Source of the DNA: Spirochaetales bacterium
GTDB lineage: Bacteria > Spirochaetota > Spirochaetia > Treponematales > Treponemataceae
Length of the DNA: 32,281 nt
NCBI GenBank assembly: GCA_003246335.1
Contig: QKAR01000088.1
Span: 1-32,281, forward strand
Direction: 5' to 3'
In this document: in pieces, positions 4,462-8,837 of the stretch
How the letters are laid out: every line of letters starts with the position of its first letter
Numbering within the stretch: position 1 is the stretch's first letter
Position numbers and translations under genes: made by a program
The notes under the pieces: generated by a model
The model's database searches: none
The model's input: only the letters and a program-made list of their open reading frames with translations
What the model was told of the DNA's origin: nothing

Positions 4462-5760
4462 TCAGGTCCGCCAAACGAGCCAGACGAAGGCCGCCGCGGC
4501 GGCGGTCGTGATGAGCGTGAAGGGAAGGCCGATCTTGAGCCAATCGACGAAACTCATTTTGATGCCCTGCTTTTTTACGAGTCCGACGGCGACGACGTTC
4601 GCCGAGGCCCCGAACGGGGTAAGGTTCCCTCCGAGGCATGAGCCGACGAGCAGCGCGAACATATAGAGTTCCGGCTTTAGGCTGAGCGCGGCGGCGAGAT
4701 GCGCGGCGACCGGCAGCATGACGATGATGTAGGGTACGTTGTCCACGAAGCCGGAAAGGACGACCGAGACGGCGAGGATAACGAGAAAGCCCAGGAATAC
4801 GTTTCCTCCGACGACCTTTCCTAAGAATGCCGCGAATTGCTCAAGCAAACCCGTGTCGGAAACCGCGCCGACGACGATGAAAATGCCGATGAGAAACGCG
4901 ATCGTCTCCCAGTCGAGATCCTTAATCATCTTGACGGTATCGCTCGGGCTTTCTTTGCGCACGAATCGGTACCACAGGACCCCGACGGTCCCGAGCGCGA
5001 ACACGATATAGCCCGAAGTCATCGAAAGGCCGGTGTGGAAAAATGAACTCACCGCGAGCCCAAGGATCATTAGGATGAGAAGGACCGAAGGTACGAACGA
5101 AAGGATCGGCTCCCGCTCGATTTCGATCTTGGTGTTCTGGCGCGAAAAGTATGCGTAAAAGTAAATCGCGCCGGCGAGCATCCCGACCTGCACGGCGAAG
5201 AAAATCGAGGGGCGTCCCGCGTACCAGAAAAAGTCGTTAAAGCCATAATGAGCGAACGTCGCGAAAATCATCGAGGGCGGATCGCCGACGAGGGTCGCCG
5301 TTCCCTGAAGGTTCGCCATTACCGCGAGGCCGACCATGAAGTACGTGGGGTCGAGCTTGAGCTTTTTGGAGAGCGCGAGCGCGATCGGCGCCATGACGAG
5401 TACCGTGGCGACGTTCTCGACGAACGCGGAGATCAAGCCGGTCATGACCAATATCGCGACGATTGCGACGCCGACGTTGGGCGACTTATCGACGATGCTG
5501 TCGGCGATGCGGGCCGGTACGCGCGAGTATATGAAAAGTTCCGCGATGGCGAGGCTCCCGATATAAATGAGCATCACCGACCAGTTAACGTAGCTCGTCA
5601 CTGCCTTGAGCACGGTGATTTGCTCGTTGCCGAAGGCGGCCCCAAGCGCGAGAGCGACGGCCGCGGCCCCGAGCGTCGCCCACGCCTTGCGGTGCGGGAA
5701 CACGATTACGATCACGTACATGACGACGGCGGCGGCCAGGATGAGCCATTTCAGTTCCAT
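4462..5760 (-). CDS. ArsB/NhaD-family (ion transporter superfamily) membrane transporter, probably Mn2+-responsive
   Basis: This is a 432-residue integral membrane protein with about 11-12 hydrophobic segments and the inverted-repeat layout of the IT superfamily. The paired motifs are visible: AFVENVATVLVMAPIA in the first half with its partner GFVDNVPYIIVMLPVAAHL in the second, and the re-entrant loops NLQGTATLVGDPPSMI and CLGGNLTPFGASANVVAVG. Family members move arsenite, Na+/H+, citrate or other anions. The leader carries a Mn2+-sensing yybP-ykoY riboswitch, so I infer a role in Mn2+ (or Mn-linked ion) export. The ATG at 5760 is chosen over an upstream ATG at 5805 because GGAG lies 8 nt before it and the upstream start falls inside the riboswitch terminator. 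Confidence 0.93.
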   Translation of the reverse strand: MELKWLILAAAVVMYVIVIVFPHRKAWATLGAAAVALALGAAFGNEQITVLKAVTSYVNWSVMLIYIGSLAIAELFIYSRVPARIADSIVDKSPNVGVAIVAILVMTGLISAFVENVATVLVMAPIALALSKKLKLDPTYFMVGLAVMANLQGTATLVGDPPSMIFATFAHYGFNDFFWYAGRPSIFFAVQVGMLAGAIYFYAYFSRQNTKIEIEREPILSFVPSVLLILMILGLAVSSFFHTGLSMTSGYIVFALGTVGVLWYRFVRKESPSDTVKMIKDLDWETIAFLIGIFIVVGAVSDTGLLEQFAAFLGKVVGGNVFLGFLVILAVSVVLSGFVDNVPYIIVMLPVAAHLAAALSLKPELYMFALLVGSCLGGNLTPFGASANVVAVGLVKKQGIKMSFVDWLKIGLPFTLITTAAAAAFVWLVWRT

Positions 5761-5803: not shown

Positions 5804-5855
5804 AAAAAAAAGACCTTTCGCGCGGGACGGTTTTGATCATCCAGCGCGAAAGGTC
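5804..5855 (-). terminator. Riboswitch expression platform: intrinsic terminator
   Basis: Read on the minus strand, a 12-bp GC-rich stem (GACCTTTCGCGC, 5844-5855, with its exact complement at 5812-5823) is followed by eight U (5804-5811). The 5' arm contains the 3' strand of aptamer helix P1, so the terminator and the ligand-bound aptamer are mutually exclusive. Confidence 0.85.
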
Positions 5856-5957
5856 TTGTTTCTTCGGGCCGAGGCCCGAAGCCGCGGAACCAGACGCGCG
5901 ATATTGCAGCGACGCCGGTTGTTGATTCCGCGAGTGTAACTACTCCCCTTTCGGTAG
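5844..5957 (-). ncRNA. yybP-ykoY manganese riboswitch aptamer
   Basis: On the minus strand the leader holds the two conserved signatures of this riboswitch class: GGGGAGUAG (5940-5948) and CAAGACCUUU (5849-5858). Helix P1 is CGAAAGG (5947-5953) with CCUUUCG (5847-5853). A 10-bp helix, CGCGGAAUCA (5923-5932) with UGGUUCCGCG (5883-5892), forms the central arm, and a 7-bp hairpin with a CUCG loop (5863-5880) the last arm. Ligand-stabilised P1 sequesters the 5' arm of the terminator, so Mn2+ should turn the downstream transporter on. A promoter sits at exactly the right distance for transcription to start near 5956. Confidence 0.88.
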
Positions 5958-5962
5958 GTTAA

Positions 5963-5991
5963 ACAATAGCCAAAGGCGCTTCGCTGGTCAA
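5963..5991 (-). promoter_or_regulatory. Promoter of the riboswitch-transporter unit
   Basis: Minus strand TTGACC (5986-5991), a 17-bp spacer and TATTGT (5963-5968) predict a start near 5956, which coincides with the 5' end of the aptamer. Confidence 0.65.
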
Positions 5992-6035: not shown

Positions 6036-8837
6036 ATGAAAAAACTTTGCATCCCTTTTATTATCGCGACGGCGCTGCTTGCCTCATGCGCCTCGTTCCG
6101 ATCCGTCGATGAGCGCGCCTCACCGTTGCGTTCGGACGCGAACGTAGCGTCTGGCGTGCTGGAAAACGGACTTTCGTGGTTCGTCGCGCGCAATGGCGAG
6201 CCGAAAAACCGATTATTCCTGCGCCTTGTCGTGCGCGCGGGCTCAAGCGCGGAGGATCCCGATCAGCGCGGCGTTGCCCACCTCGTCGAGCACATGGCGT
6301 TTAACGGTTCCGAGCATTTCGAGAAAAACGACCTTGTCGACTATTTCGAGAGCGTCGGCATGAGTTTTGGCCCGGAGGTCAACGCGCAGACGCGCTTCGA
6401 CGAAACGATATATATGCTCGAGATTCCCTCTGACGACCCGATCGCCCTCGAGAAGGCCTTGCTCGTCTTGCGGGATTGGGCATGCGGCTTGACCTTCGAT
6501 CAGGAAGAGCTCGACAAGGAACGCGGCGTCGTCATCGAGGAGTGGCGGCAAGGCCGAGGCGCGGCAGGCCGCGTTTCCGACAAACAATTCCCTTTTTTGC
6601 TCGCGGGTTCGCGCTACGCGGAACGCCTTCCGATCGGAGACCCGGAAATCGTCAAAACCGTTTCTCGGACGCGCGTCGTGGATTTCTACAAGAAATGGTA
6701 TCGACCGGAACTCATGTCCGCCGTCATCGTCGGCGACGCCGATCCGGTCATGCTATCCCGAAGGGTTGAAACCGTTTTGGGCTCGATTCCCGCCTCGTCC
6801 GATCGGGTAAAGCGGCCGATATGGGCCGTTCCCGCGCGGAAATCGCCCGCCTCGCTCGTTATTCGCGATCCTGAGCTCCGCGTCGCGACCGTGCGGCTTT
6901 TCGCCGCCCGCCCCGAAAAACCGGTAACGAGGGAGGCCGACGTTCGGGCGAACATCTCCCGCGCGATCGCCGTATCCGCGCTGCAATCGCGTCTTTCTGA
7001 ACGCTCGCAGTCCGCGGGCTCGCCGCTTCTCGCCGTCGGCGCGAGCGTATATTCTCCCGTCAGGGCGGAAGCCCTTTTTTCCCTTGCCTTCGTTCCCGCC
7101 GACGGGAAATTCGCCGAGGCGCTCTCGGCCGCGCTCGAGGAACGCGCCCGTTTCGCGCGCTTCGGGATCACGGAAGGGGAGCTGTCGCGGGCGAAAAGCG
7201 ATATCCTCGATTCTTCGCGGCAGGCCTGGCTTAATCGCGACAAGCGACCGTCTTCGGGATACGCCGACTCGATTGTCTCCGGGCTTCTGTCCGGAGACGT
7301 TGTCCTCTCCGCCCAGGAGCGCTTCGATTTGTACGCGAAAATCGTGCCGGAGCTGACGGTCAAGGAAGTTTCTTCCGTTTCTGCTCAGTGGTTTGCGGAA
7401 AAAAATAATTTACTCGTGGTGACCGCGCCGGAGTCCGCCGCGAGCGTGCCCGACGACGCTGTCATCGATACCCTCTGGAAAGGCTGGAAGGCCGACGCGC
7501 TGACCCCTTACGCCGAGACCGGGCTCGATCGGCCCCTGTTCGACGAACCTTCGACCCGCGGTTCCGTCGCGAGCGAGGAACCCGCGACCGCCGATGGGAT
7601 TAAGCGGCTGGTCCTGTCGAACGGAGCGCGCGTGATCGTGTATCCCACGGAATTCAAGGATGACGAAATCCTTTTTTCCGCGTGGAGTAAGGGCGGAACG
7701 TCCTTGGCGAGCGACGGGGATTTTCCCTCGGCCGACATAGCGGCGACGTACGCGCGGCTGTCCGGACTGAACGGTTTTTCCGCCTCCGATCTCGATAAAA
7801 AACTCGCGGGCAAAACGGTCTCGGTTCGGCCGTGGATCGACGAGTCGTGGGAAGGCCTTTCCGGCTCAAGCTCGGTCGCCGACCTTGAGACGCTCTTTGG
7901 CCTGATTCGCGCCCGGTTTACCGCGCCCTATTTTTCGTCCGACGCCTGGGCGTCCCTGAAGTCCCAGCTCGAAACGGTCGCCGCCTCGCGCGCGAACGAC
8001 CCGACGGAGGAATTCTCCGATCTTGAAAATCGCCTGCTGTACGGCGACACCGTTCGCCGGTCTAATTTGACGCCGACCGCCGTCGCCGCGATGGATAGGA
8101 ACCGAGCAGAGGAGTTCTATCGGGAGCGCTTCGCGAACGCGGGCGATTTCACCTTCGTCTTCGTCGGCTCTATCGATGAATCGCGCGTTCGGGATTTAGC
8201 CGAACGGTATCTCGCGACATTGCCCGCTTCTCCCACGAGGGAAGAAGCGAAACCCCTTGGCATCGAGTTTCCGTCCGGCGTTAAAACAGGGGAGACTCTC
8301 CGGGGAATCGCGCCGCAAGCTCAGGCCTTTCTCGCCTTCGGCGGCCCCATCAAGGCGGACGCGTCGACCCGGGATCTATTCGGCATGATGAACTCCGCCC
8401 TGGAGATACGCCTCCGCGAGGTGATCCGCGAGGATATGAGCGGCTCGTACGGGGTGAGCGTATCCGGGGACATAACCGAATATCCCGAGTCCCGTTACGA
8501 AATACGGGTTGAGTTCGGCTGCGATCCCGCCCGCGTCGACGAGTTGACTCAGGCGACGCTTGAGCAGATTCGATGGCTTCGGGACGCGCCGCTCGACGCG
8601 AAGTATCTCGAGAAAGTCCGCGAGGCGTATCGTCGCGCTCACGAGGTTGGCGTCTCGAATAACCGCTGGTGGCTCGCTCGCATCCAGGAACGGGACATGG
8701 ACGGAAGAGTCCTTGAGGGAATATCGGATGGCGGCGCGACGCTTAACCGCGCGACTGGCCGCGCCATTCAGGCGCTCGCCGGGCTATGCTTTAAGACCGA
8801 TAATTACGTGAAGGCGACGCTCATCCCGGAAAAATGA
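6036..8837 (+). CDS. M16-family zinc metalloprotease, lipoprotein (insulinase/pitrilysin type)
   Basis: This 933-residue protein has two tandem M16 units. It starts with a lipoprotein signal (KKLCIPFIIATALLASC, lipobox LASC, Cys18), so it is probably anchored in the periplasm or outer membrane. The inverted zinc motif HxxEH is in AHLVEHMAFNG (H82, E85, H86), with the downstream ligand region KERGVVIEEW (E169). The second unit (from about residue 500) lacks a zinc motif, as is normal for the non-catalytic half, and keeps an R-x-x-G/Y substrate-contact type region near residue 800-810 (SGSYGVSV). It should degrade peptides. The ATG at 6036 is preceded by AAGGA (6022-6026). It is transcribed away from the riboswitch promoter and stands alone. 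Confidence 0.93.
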   Translation: MKKLCIPFIIATALLASCASFRSVDERASPLRSDANVASGVLENGLSWFVARNGEPKNRLFLRLVVRAGSSAEDPDQRGVAHLVEHMAFNGSEHFEKNDLVDYFESVGMSFGPEVNAQTRFDETIYMLEIPSDDPIALEKALLVLRDWACGLTFDQEELDKERGVVIEEWRQGRGAAGRVSDKQFPFLLAGSRYAERLPIGDPEIVKTVSRTRVVDFYKKWYRPELMSAVIVGDADPVMLSRRVETVLGSIPASSDRVKRPIWAVPARKSPASLVIRDPELRVATVRLFAARPEKPVTREADVRANISRAIAVSALQSRLSERSQSAGSPLLAVGASVYSPVRAEALFSLAFVPADGKFAEALSAALEERARFARFGITEGELSRAKSDILDSSRQAWLNRDKRPSSGYADSIVSGLLSGDVVLSAQERFDLYAKIVPELTVKEVSSVSAQWFAEKNNLLVVTAPESAASVPDDAVIDTLWKGWKADALTPYAETGLDRPLFDEPSTRGSVASEEPATADGIKRLVLSNGARVIVYPTEFKDDEILFSAWSKGGTSLASDGDFPSADIAATYARLSGLNGFSASDLDKKLAGKTVSVRPWIDESWEGLSGSSSVADLETLFGLIRARFTAPYFSSDAWASLKSQLETVAASRANDPTEEFSDLENRLLYGDTVRRSNLTPTAVAAMDRNRAEEFYRERFANAGDFTFVFVGSIDESRVRDLAERYLATLPASPTREEAKPLGIEFPSGVKTGETLRGIAPQAQAFLAFGGPIKADASTRDLFGMMNSALEIRLREVIREDMSGSYGVSVSGDITEYPESRYEIRVEFGCDPARVDELTQATLEQIRWLRDAPLDAKYLEKVREAYRRAHEVGVSNNRWWLARIQERDMDGRVLEGISDGGATLNRATGRAIQALAGLCFKTDNYVKATLIPEK

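Follow-up and report, generated by a model that had tools for sequence, protein, structure and literature searches.

A yybP-ykoY-type riboswitch precedes an IT-superfamily transporter gene in a spirochaete: a probable Mn2+-activated switch for a candidate cation exporter

Riboswitches of the yybP-ykoY class are known to control genes of the MntP, MneA/UPF0016, TerC and P-type ATPase families. The leader of a gene for an ion transporter (IT) superfamily protein in a Treponemataceae genome raises the question of whether this Mn2+ riboswitch class also serves an IT transporter, and what such a transporter would do. The window, by which we mean the whole stretch of DNA analysed, comprises 32,281 nucleotides of contig QKAR01000088.1 from a Spirochaetales bacterium (GCA_003246335.1). 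An earlier sequence-only reading had placed a complete riboswitch at positions 5804-5991, and this observation is confirmed: a promoter-like site, both class signatures, the P1 pairing, two further helices and a terminator with eight U are all in place on the minus strand by direct reading and folding.

The aptamer (5840-5960) and the terminator together occupy positions 5960-5804 of the minus strand, 5' of a CitMHS/ArsB-type transporter gene (4462-5760, minus strand, 432 amino acids) that starts with the ATG at 5760; the list of open reading frames extends it to a TTG at 5805. Upstream lies a sigma-70-like promoter-like site (TTGACC-17-TATTGT, 5963-5991, minus strand): the consensus scan found one such site with 0.2 expected from shuffles, and a comparable site was seen by eye 5' of the riboswitch RNA of a relative (G008). 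The 5' strands of P1 and L1 (5940-5953; direct reading and an alignment of 12 RNAs) include the L1 strand GGGGAGUAG, read directly at 5948-5940, and GGGGAGTAGT is invariant in all 12 aligned spirochaete RNAs. The other class signature, CAAGACCUUU, is read directly at 5858-5849. P1 pairs CGAAAGG with CCUUUCG (5953-5947 with 5853-5847), the latter strand lying together with the L1 3' strand (A)CAAGA in 5847-5859, as indicated by reading, alignment and covariation. L3 (UCAACA, 5920-5925), of which CAACA is invariant in 12/12 and 18/18 RNAs of two alignments, is part of the P3/L3/P3.1 arm (5884-5931, with P3 formed by 5931-5923 and 5892-5884), for which folding, covariation and the joint alignment agree. 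The P4 hairpin (5862-5881; 5881-5875 with 5868-5862) has changes on both sides in 7/7 pairs. The intrinsic terminator (5804-5857) has arms at 5857-5844 and 5823-5810 and eight U at 5811-5804; it is absent from the consensus scanner output for the leader and visible in the computed fold. Its 5' arm includes the P1 3' strand, as claimed before and now confirmed by reading and folding. The fold of the whole leader has -79.2 kcal/mol (z -5.96), which none of 200 shuffles equalled. Divergent from the riboswitch is a peptidase gene (6036-8837, plus strand), M16-like by eye and without family assignment, and the same arrangement is found in G003 (locus L011).

Membership of the yybP-ykoY class was to be checked with the Rfam model RF00080, which gave no match in the window at any threshold tried. 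The same model (Rfam 15) puts the mntP riboswitch of E. coli (L055, 1962-2058) at 41.6 bits, below the gathering cut-off of 45, leaves E. coli alx (L056) unmatched even at E up to 10, and has matches in 5 of 14 control genomes, above the cut-off in two. Its silence in the window is therefore uninformative, and its cut-off was not taken as defining the class, since E. coli mntP fails it too. Whether homologous transporters in other spirochaetes carry the RNA was examined in a set of 59 genomes (the window's own and 58 relatives), searched with the riboswitch RNA and with the transporter: the RNA recurs upstream of orthologues. With RF00080, none of the 59 is above the cut-off. The current RF00080 model thus misses the riboswitches of this clade.

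Our model R1 was built from 12 spirochaete RNAs, the window's included, and without any E. coli sequence; nine precede an IT gene (the window's among them), two precede OadB and one lies at a contig end. It matches the window with 106.4 bits, the window sequence itself having gone into the model, and it matches E. coli mntP with 27.0 bits (E 6.8e-6) and E. coli alx with 21.3 bits (E 3.2e-4), with 28.7 kb searched. In the 12-RNA alignment the L1 and L3 cores are invariant, 90.5% of cells are paired and both sides vary in 19 of 29 pairs; none of 500 shuffles was as good and shifted controls were far lower. Aligned jointly, 18 RNAs that belong to mntP, UPF0016, P-type ATPase, OadB and IT genes and include that of E. 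coli mntP adopt the same structure, with compensatory changes in 20 of 24 pairs, and the P1/P2 and P3/P4 helices are backed by covariation. The alx-type RNAs yielded model R3, which matched mntP-type RNAs among 80 loci as well (9 of 11 at E <=0.002, L130 and L176 weakly); R2 and R3 include R1-found sequences, and their matches to those are by construction.

Like the mntP-type RNAs of RF00080, the window RNA has the L1 core GGGGAGUAG with CRAGACC (columns invariant in both alignments), an L3 with the discriminator adenosine (UCAACA), the P1-P4 order and P1 as the switch helix. It differs in L3, which behind the discriminator A has one base fewer than most mntP RNAs, in a P2 pair that is U-A in place of C-G, and in being undetected by the Rfam model. 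In our own alignment A5920 of L3 would correspond to A48 of X. oryzae and A41 of L. lactis, the adenosine that confers Mn2+ specificity in the structures described in the accessible part of PMC6754395. That the element is a look-alike leader or a plain terminator, as the missing RF00080 match might suggest, is scarcely credible and is rejected on the R1 matches to E. coli mntP and alx, with the compensatory changes, the targets shared with the class and the poor sensitivity of RF00080 arguing in the same direction. The E. coli-free model, the invariant core bases and the gene context all support the earlier identification, and by homology the element is a genuine member of the Mn2+ (yybP-ykoY) class. 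The Rfam families of the Na+-I and Na+-II riboswitches are unmatched in the window region, and a plasmid search with the riboswitch RNA as query gave no match.

The arrangement of P1 and terminator is widely kept: in all 31 RNAs examined, which are related and hence not independent, a downstream arm pairs at 9-10 of 10 positions with the P1 3' region. UUUU directly follows this arm in 30 of the 31 (in G234, the arm picked in the test differs from the arm bearing the U run), and at least 6 of 8 P1 pairs are kept in 28. Shuffled P1 strands reach the arm pairing in 13% of cases, and in 4.6% with UUUU. On folding by length, P1 appears at 124 nt, with the terminator in place by 148-156 nt. As P1 and terminator compete for the P1 3' strand, a ligand that stabilises P1 should switch the gene on, and the predicted ON-switch architecture is thus found throughout the set (competing arm 31/31, U run 30/31). 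The yybP element of L. lactis offers a precedent; it controls yoaB, the window element controlling an IT-superfamily transporter gene. Its terminator likewise shares the P1 3' strand and Mn2+ causes antitermination, according to the available text of PMC11087558; that of PMC9495176 prints the target as YaoB. From the architecture and this precedent we infer the ON direction.

At high Mn2+, the ion would fill the L1-L3 site, dock the two helical legs and keep P1 closed; CCUUUCG would be kept from the terminator and RNA polymerase would continue into the transporter gene. At low Mn2+, the P1 3' strand would pair with GCGCGAAAGGUC and transcription would end at the U run. The transporter would be made under Mn2+ excess and would most likely export Mn2+, or divalent cations including Mn2+, against protons or Na+. 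What is observed of this are the aptamer homology, the conserved alternative pairing, the gene order and the co-occurrence; Mn2+ as the ligand of the window riboswitch and Mn2+ export by the window transporter are what these suggest. The most likely reading is an ON switch that Mn2+ activates and that serves a cation exporter, and we consider it probable that the leader is a transcriptional yybP-ykoY riboswitch that turns the gene for a Mn2+ or cation exporter on at high Mn2+.

The product of the gene indeed belongs to the IT superfamily (CitMHS/ArsB/DASS), as had been proposed: its Pfam matches are CitMHS (E 7e-54) and ArsB (E 4e-13), and the predicted fold agrees. At E up to 0.01 Pfam adds only DctM and no known Mn2+ exporter family, and no subfamily cut-off of NCBIfam is reached. 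Known Mn2+ exporter families include MntP, UPF0016, TerC, P-type ATPase and CDF; the IT superfamily also includes Na+/H+ antiporters, arsenite pumps and citrate carriers. The AlphaFold2 model (mean pLDDT 92) is closest to the arsenite efflux pump ArsB (10tp), the closest solved fold with a TM of about 0.8, followed by VcINDY-type structures. Identity to ArsB is 19% and, unlike ArsB, the window transporter has acids at both hairpin tips (E115, D340). In ArsB the hairpin tips hold the substrate site and efflux is proton-coupled, as stated in the available part of PMC13381914. VcINDY (DASS) belongs to the same superfamily and its SNT tips correspond in the alignment to ENV and DNV of the transporter, but the Ser at both of its substrate tips is replaced by Glu115 and Asp340.

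Glu115 is kept in 43 of 44 aligned relatives and Asp340 in 44 of 44. The acidic tips were considered as a mark of Mn2+ transport and rejected: all four paralogues without the RNA (30-38% identity) have acids at these positions too, and E115 and D340 are thus no proof of a metal substrate. In a tree of 61 transporters, alx-type RNAs fall within one supported clade (99/91), which includes a single RNA-less row, and mntP-type RNAs occur at scattered positions. This is consistent with an old association of riboswitch and transporter, followed by losses, with the caveat that 12 of the 58 inner branches are drawn as open. One locus (L249, G053:C14:149900-153464) has a tandem pair of transporter copies behind one riboswitch. 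At two Omnitrophota loci (L184, L186), by eye, a gene for an RND heavy-metal efflux pump seems to end upstream of the transporter.

Which other genes the RNA precedes was surveyed with model R2, which had matches at 57 places, spread over 55 of the 392 genomes searched in the phylum. The first gene behind the RNA is mntP in 22, an IT transporter in 16, OadB in eight, a P-type ATPase in four, UPF0016 and a Na/Ca exchanger in three each, and unreadable in one. Names were assigned to 49 of the 57 by blastp, with references from the window, E. coli and spirochaetes, and to six by Pfam (two UPF0016, three Na/Ca exchangers, one OadB); one partly readable UPF0016 gene was named by eye, and the remaining place (G304, C108) is at a contig edge. 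Beyond this tally, R3 found alx-type RNAs before IT genes in G043 and G055 and before OadB in G305. Searches over 40 genomes (phylum, relatives) used stricter filters, at which weak matches are lost, and the searched sets overlap (L108 is the G005 contig, L148 the G023 contig), so that counts are not additive. The RNA thus serves Mn2+ and divalent-cation exporter families as well as IT and OadB targets.

The OadB genes behind this riboswitch class include L097:7133-8260(-), L098:7352-8521(+), L099:7732-8871(+), L100:6649-7782(-), L102:2873-4039(-), L244:267-1448(+) and L247:238-1431(+); these seven match OAD_beta with E values of 1e-135 to 1e-147. No decarboxylase partner adjoining OadB was recognised by eye in the neighbourhoods of G014, G022, G168 and G139. 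Antiporters of the Na_Ca_ex family (PF01699) lie behind yybP-ykoY-type RNAs at L225:213-1349(+), L243:295-1257(+) and L245:124-1272(+), in genomes G018, G407 and G278.

These targets bear on the question of whether the RNA has kept its ligand. The window L3 reads UCAACA-ACC-GG, one base shorter than the UCAACA-NNCU-GG of most mntP RNAs, and the 3-nt form UCAACA-RCC-GR is found, among the 57 R2 places, before eight IT genes, seven OadB genes, one Na/Ca exchanger gene and one unreadable gene, and in none of the 22 mntP RNAs. The short-L3 RNAs might accordingly be a subclass that responds to Na+ or to some other ion in place of Mn2+ and regulates Na+ exporters, such as an NhaD-like antiporter and OadB, which is by name a subunit of a Na+ pump. 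The accessible text of PMC9337991 counts oxaloacetate decarboxylase and Na+/H+ antiporters among the targets of the Na+-I riboswitch, and a review, in the part available, anticipates yybP variants with other divalent ions as ligands (PMC7266159). Similarly, parts of PMC9337991 and PMC9646797 describe Na+-I (DUF1646) and Na+-II riboswitches in control of Na+ transporter genes, and the Na+-I riboswitch on decarboxylase genes as well; the window region differs in matching neither family. Against a changed specificity, the IT family occurs behind short-L3 aptamers (as in the window), long-L3 aptamers and alx-type aptamers, and within an mntP operon; the presence of one transporter family behind several L3 versions speaks against a private ligand change. 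OadB, too, is found behind an alx-type RNA (G305), the short L3 also precedes a Na/Ca exchanger gene (G407), and neither the discriminator A nor the L1 core bases have been lost. A change of ligand is therefore improbable, and Mn2+ remains the most likely ligand.

The operon is found at L176 (Spirochaetia bacterium SUG221), in the order RNA, mntP, IT transporter, with the mntP stop overlapping the transporter start. The mntP gene is assigned by PF02659 (E 7e-33), and the canonical aptamer scores 51.7 bits with R2, in which it is contained. This operon is one case among the loci examined, and it lends support to the proposal that the transporters form a new family of Mn2+ exporters.

The riboswitch is not a constant companion of the transporter. 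Among the 59 genomes, 25 have an orthologue with readable upstream sequence; the riboswitch is present in 14 and missing in 11, one of which (G002) keeps the 3' half of the RNA. At 80 orthologue loci, the best 80 of at least 569 relatives, a complete RNA lies directly before the IT gene in 12, L146 has the 3' half and L176 has the RNA before mntP; at the other 66 of these best 80 it was not found with three models and a motif scan. The RNA being absent at most orthologue loci, the transporter gene often works without this riboswitch. A scan of 40 of the 66 loci for other riboswitches (26 were left out) found only tRNAs. In two species, at L027 and L146 (about 1640-1734), only the 3' half of the RNA, consisting of L1 3' strand and terminator, precedes the transporter; these look like decayed riboswitches.

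Of the 14 genomes in which the IT gene carries the RNA, 13 also possess mntP; the idea that the transporter generally replaces MntP was rejected on this ground, and with mntP usually coexisting the IT gene is no simple replacement. In ten genomes (that of the window and nine relatives) the IT gene carries an mntP-type RNA; each of them has one R2 match, at that gene, and nine of the ten also have an mntP gene. When 11 mntP loci were checked directly, that of the window's genome included, the RNA was present in one (G021). UPF0016 had no match in any of the 59 genomes.

The RNA may sense Mn2+ and the transporter may nevertheless not export it, relieving Mn2+ or alkaline stress indirectly, for example as a Na+/H+ antiporter or as a citrate or anion carrier. 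The breadth of the Pfam families CitMHS and ArsB and of the DASS fold would allow this and the acidic tips are not peculiar to the transporter clade; in addition, control of E. coli mntP by its riboswitch is tied to alkalinisation in the available text of PMC9603457. The coupling of the transporter to mntP in one operon argues against indirect relief, as do the remaining targets found for the RNA in the phylum, which, OadB aside, are mostly families that export divalent cations. We regard this alternative as rather unlikely, yet as a more serious contender than a change of ligand, and return to export of Mn2+ or a related cation as the preferred function.

The riboswitch class is known and the IT-superfamily target is new to the literature searched: with the two 2015 discovery papers and their target lists outside the comparison, no report there lists OadB or an IT-superfamily transporter among the genes controlled. 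MntP and a P-type ATPase are among the known targets in the accessible part of PMC9495176; the consulted portion of PMC7266159 mentions yybP RNAs before ambiguously annotated putative cation-transporter genes and suggests other divalent ions as possible ligands of some variants. As far as comparative evidence goes, the interpretation given to riboswitch and target in the sequence-only reading is supported, and the IT transporter may be a new kind of Mn2+ exporter. The wider proposal, that in spirochaetes two families not counted among the known Mn2+ exporters, IT-superfamily transporters and partnerless OadB proteins, both export Mn2+ and are induced by it, each through a yybP-ykoY riboswitch, is a tentative one, to which we give somewhat less than even credence. 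One transporter family with several L3 versions also provides a natural test set for the ligand changes of yybP RNAs discussed in PMC7266159, as far as its text was available. If the wider proposal is true, it would extend the few known families of Mn2+ exporters, place Mn2+ export on a fold whose other substrates are arsenite, dicarboxylates, sulfate and citrate, and hint at a role for lone OadB beta subunits.
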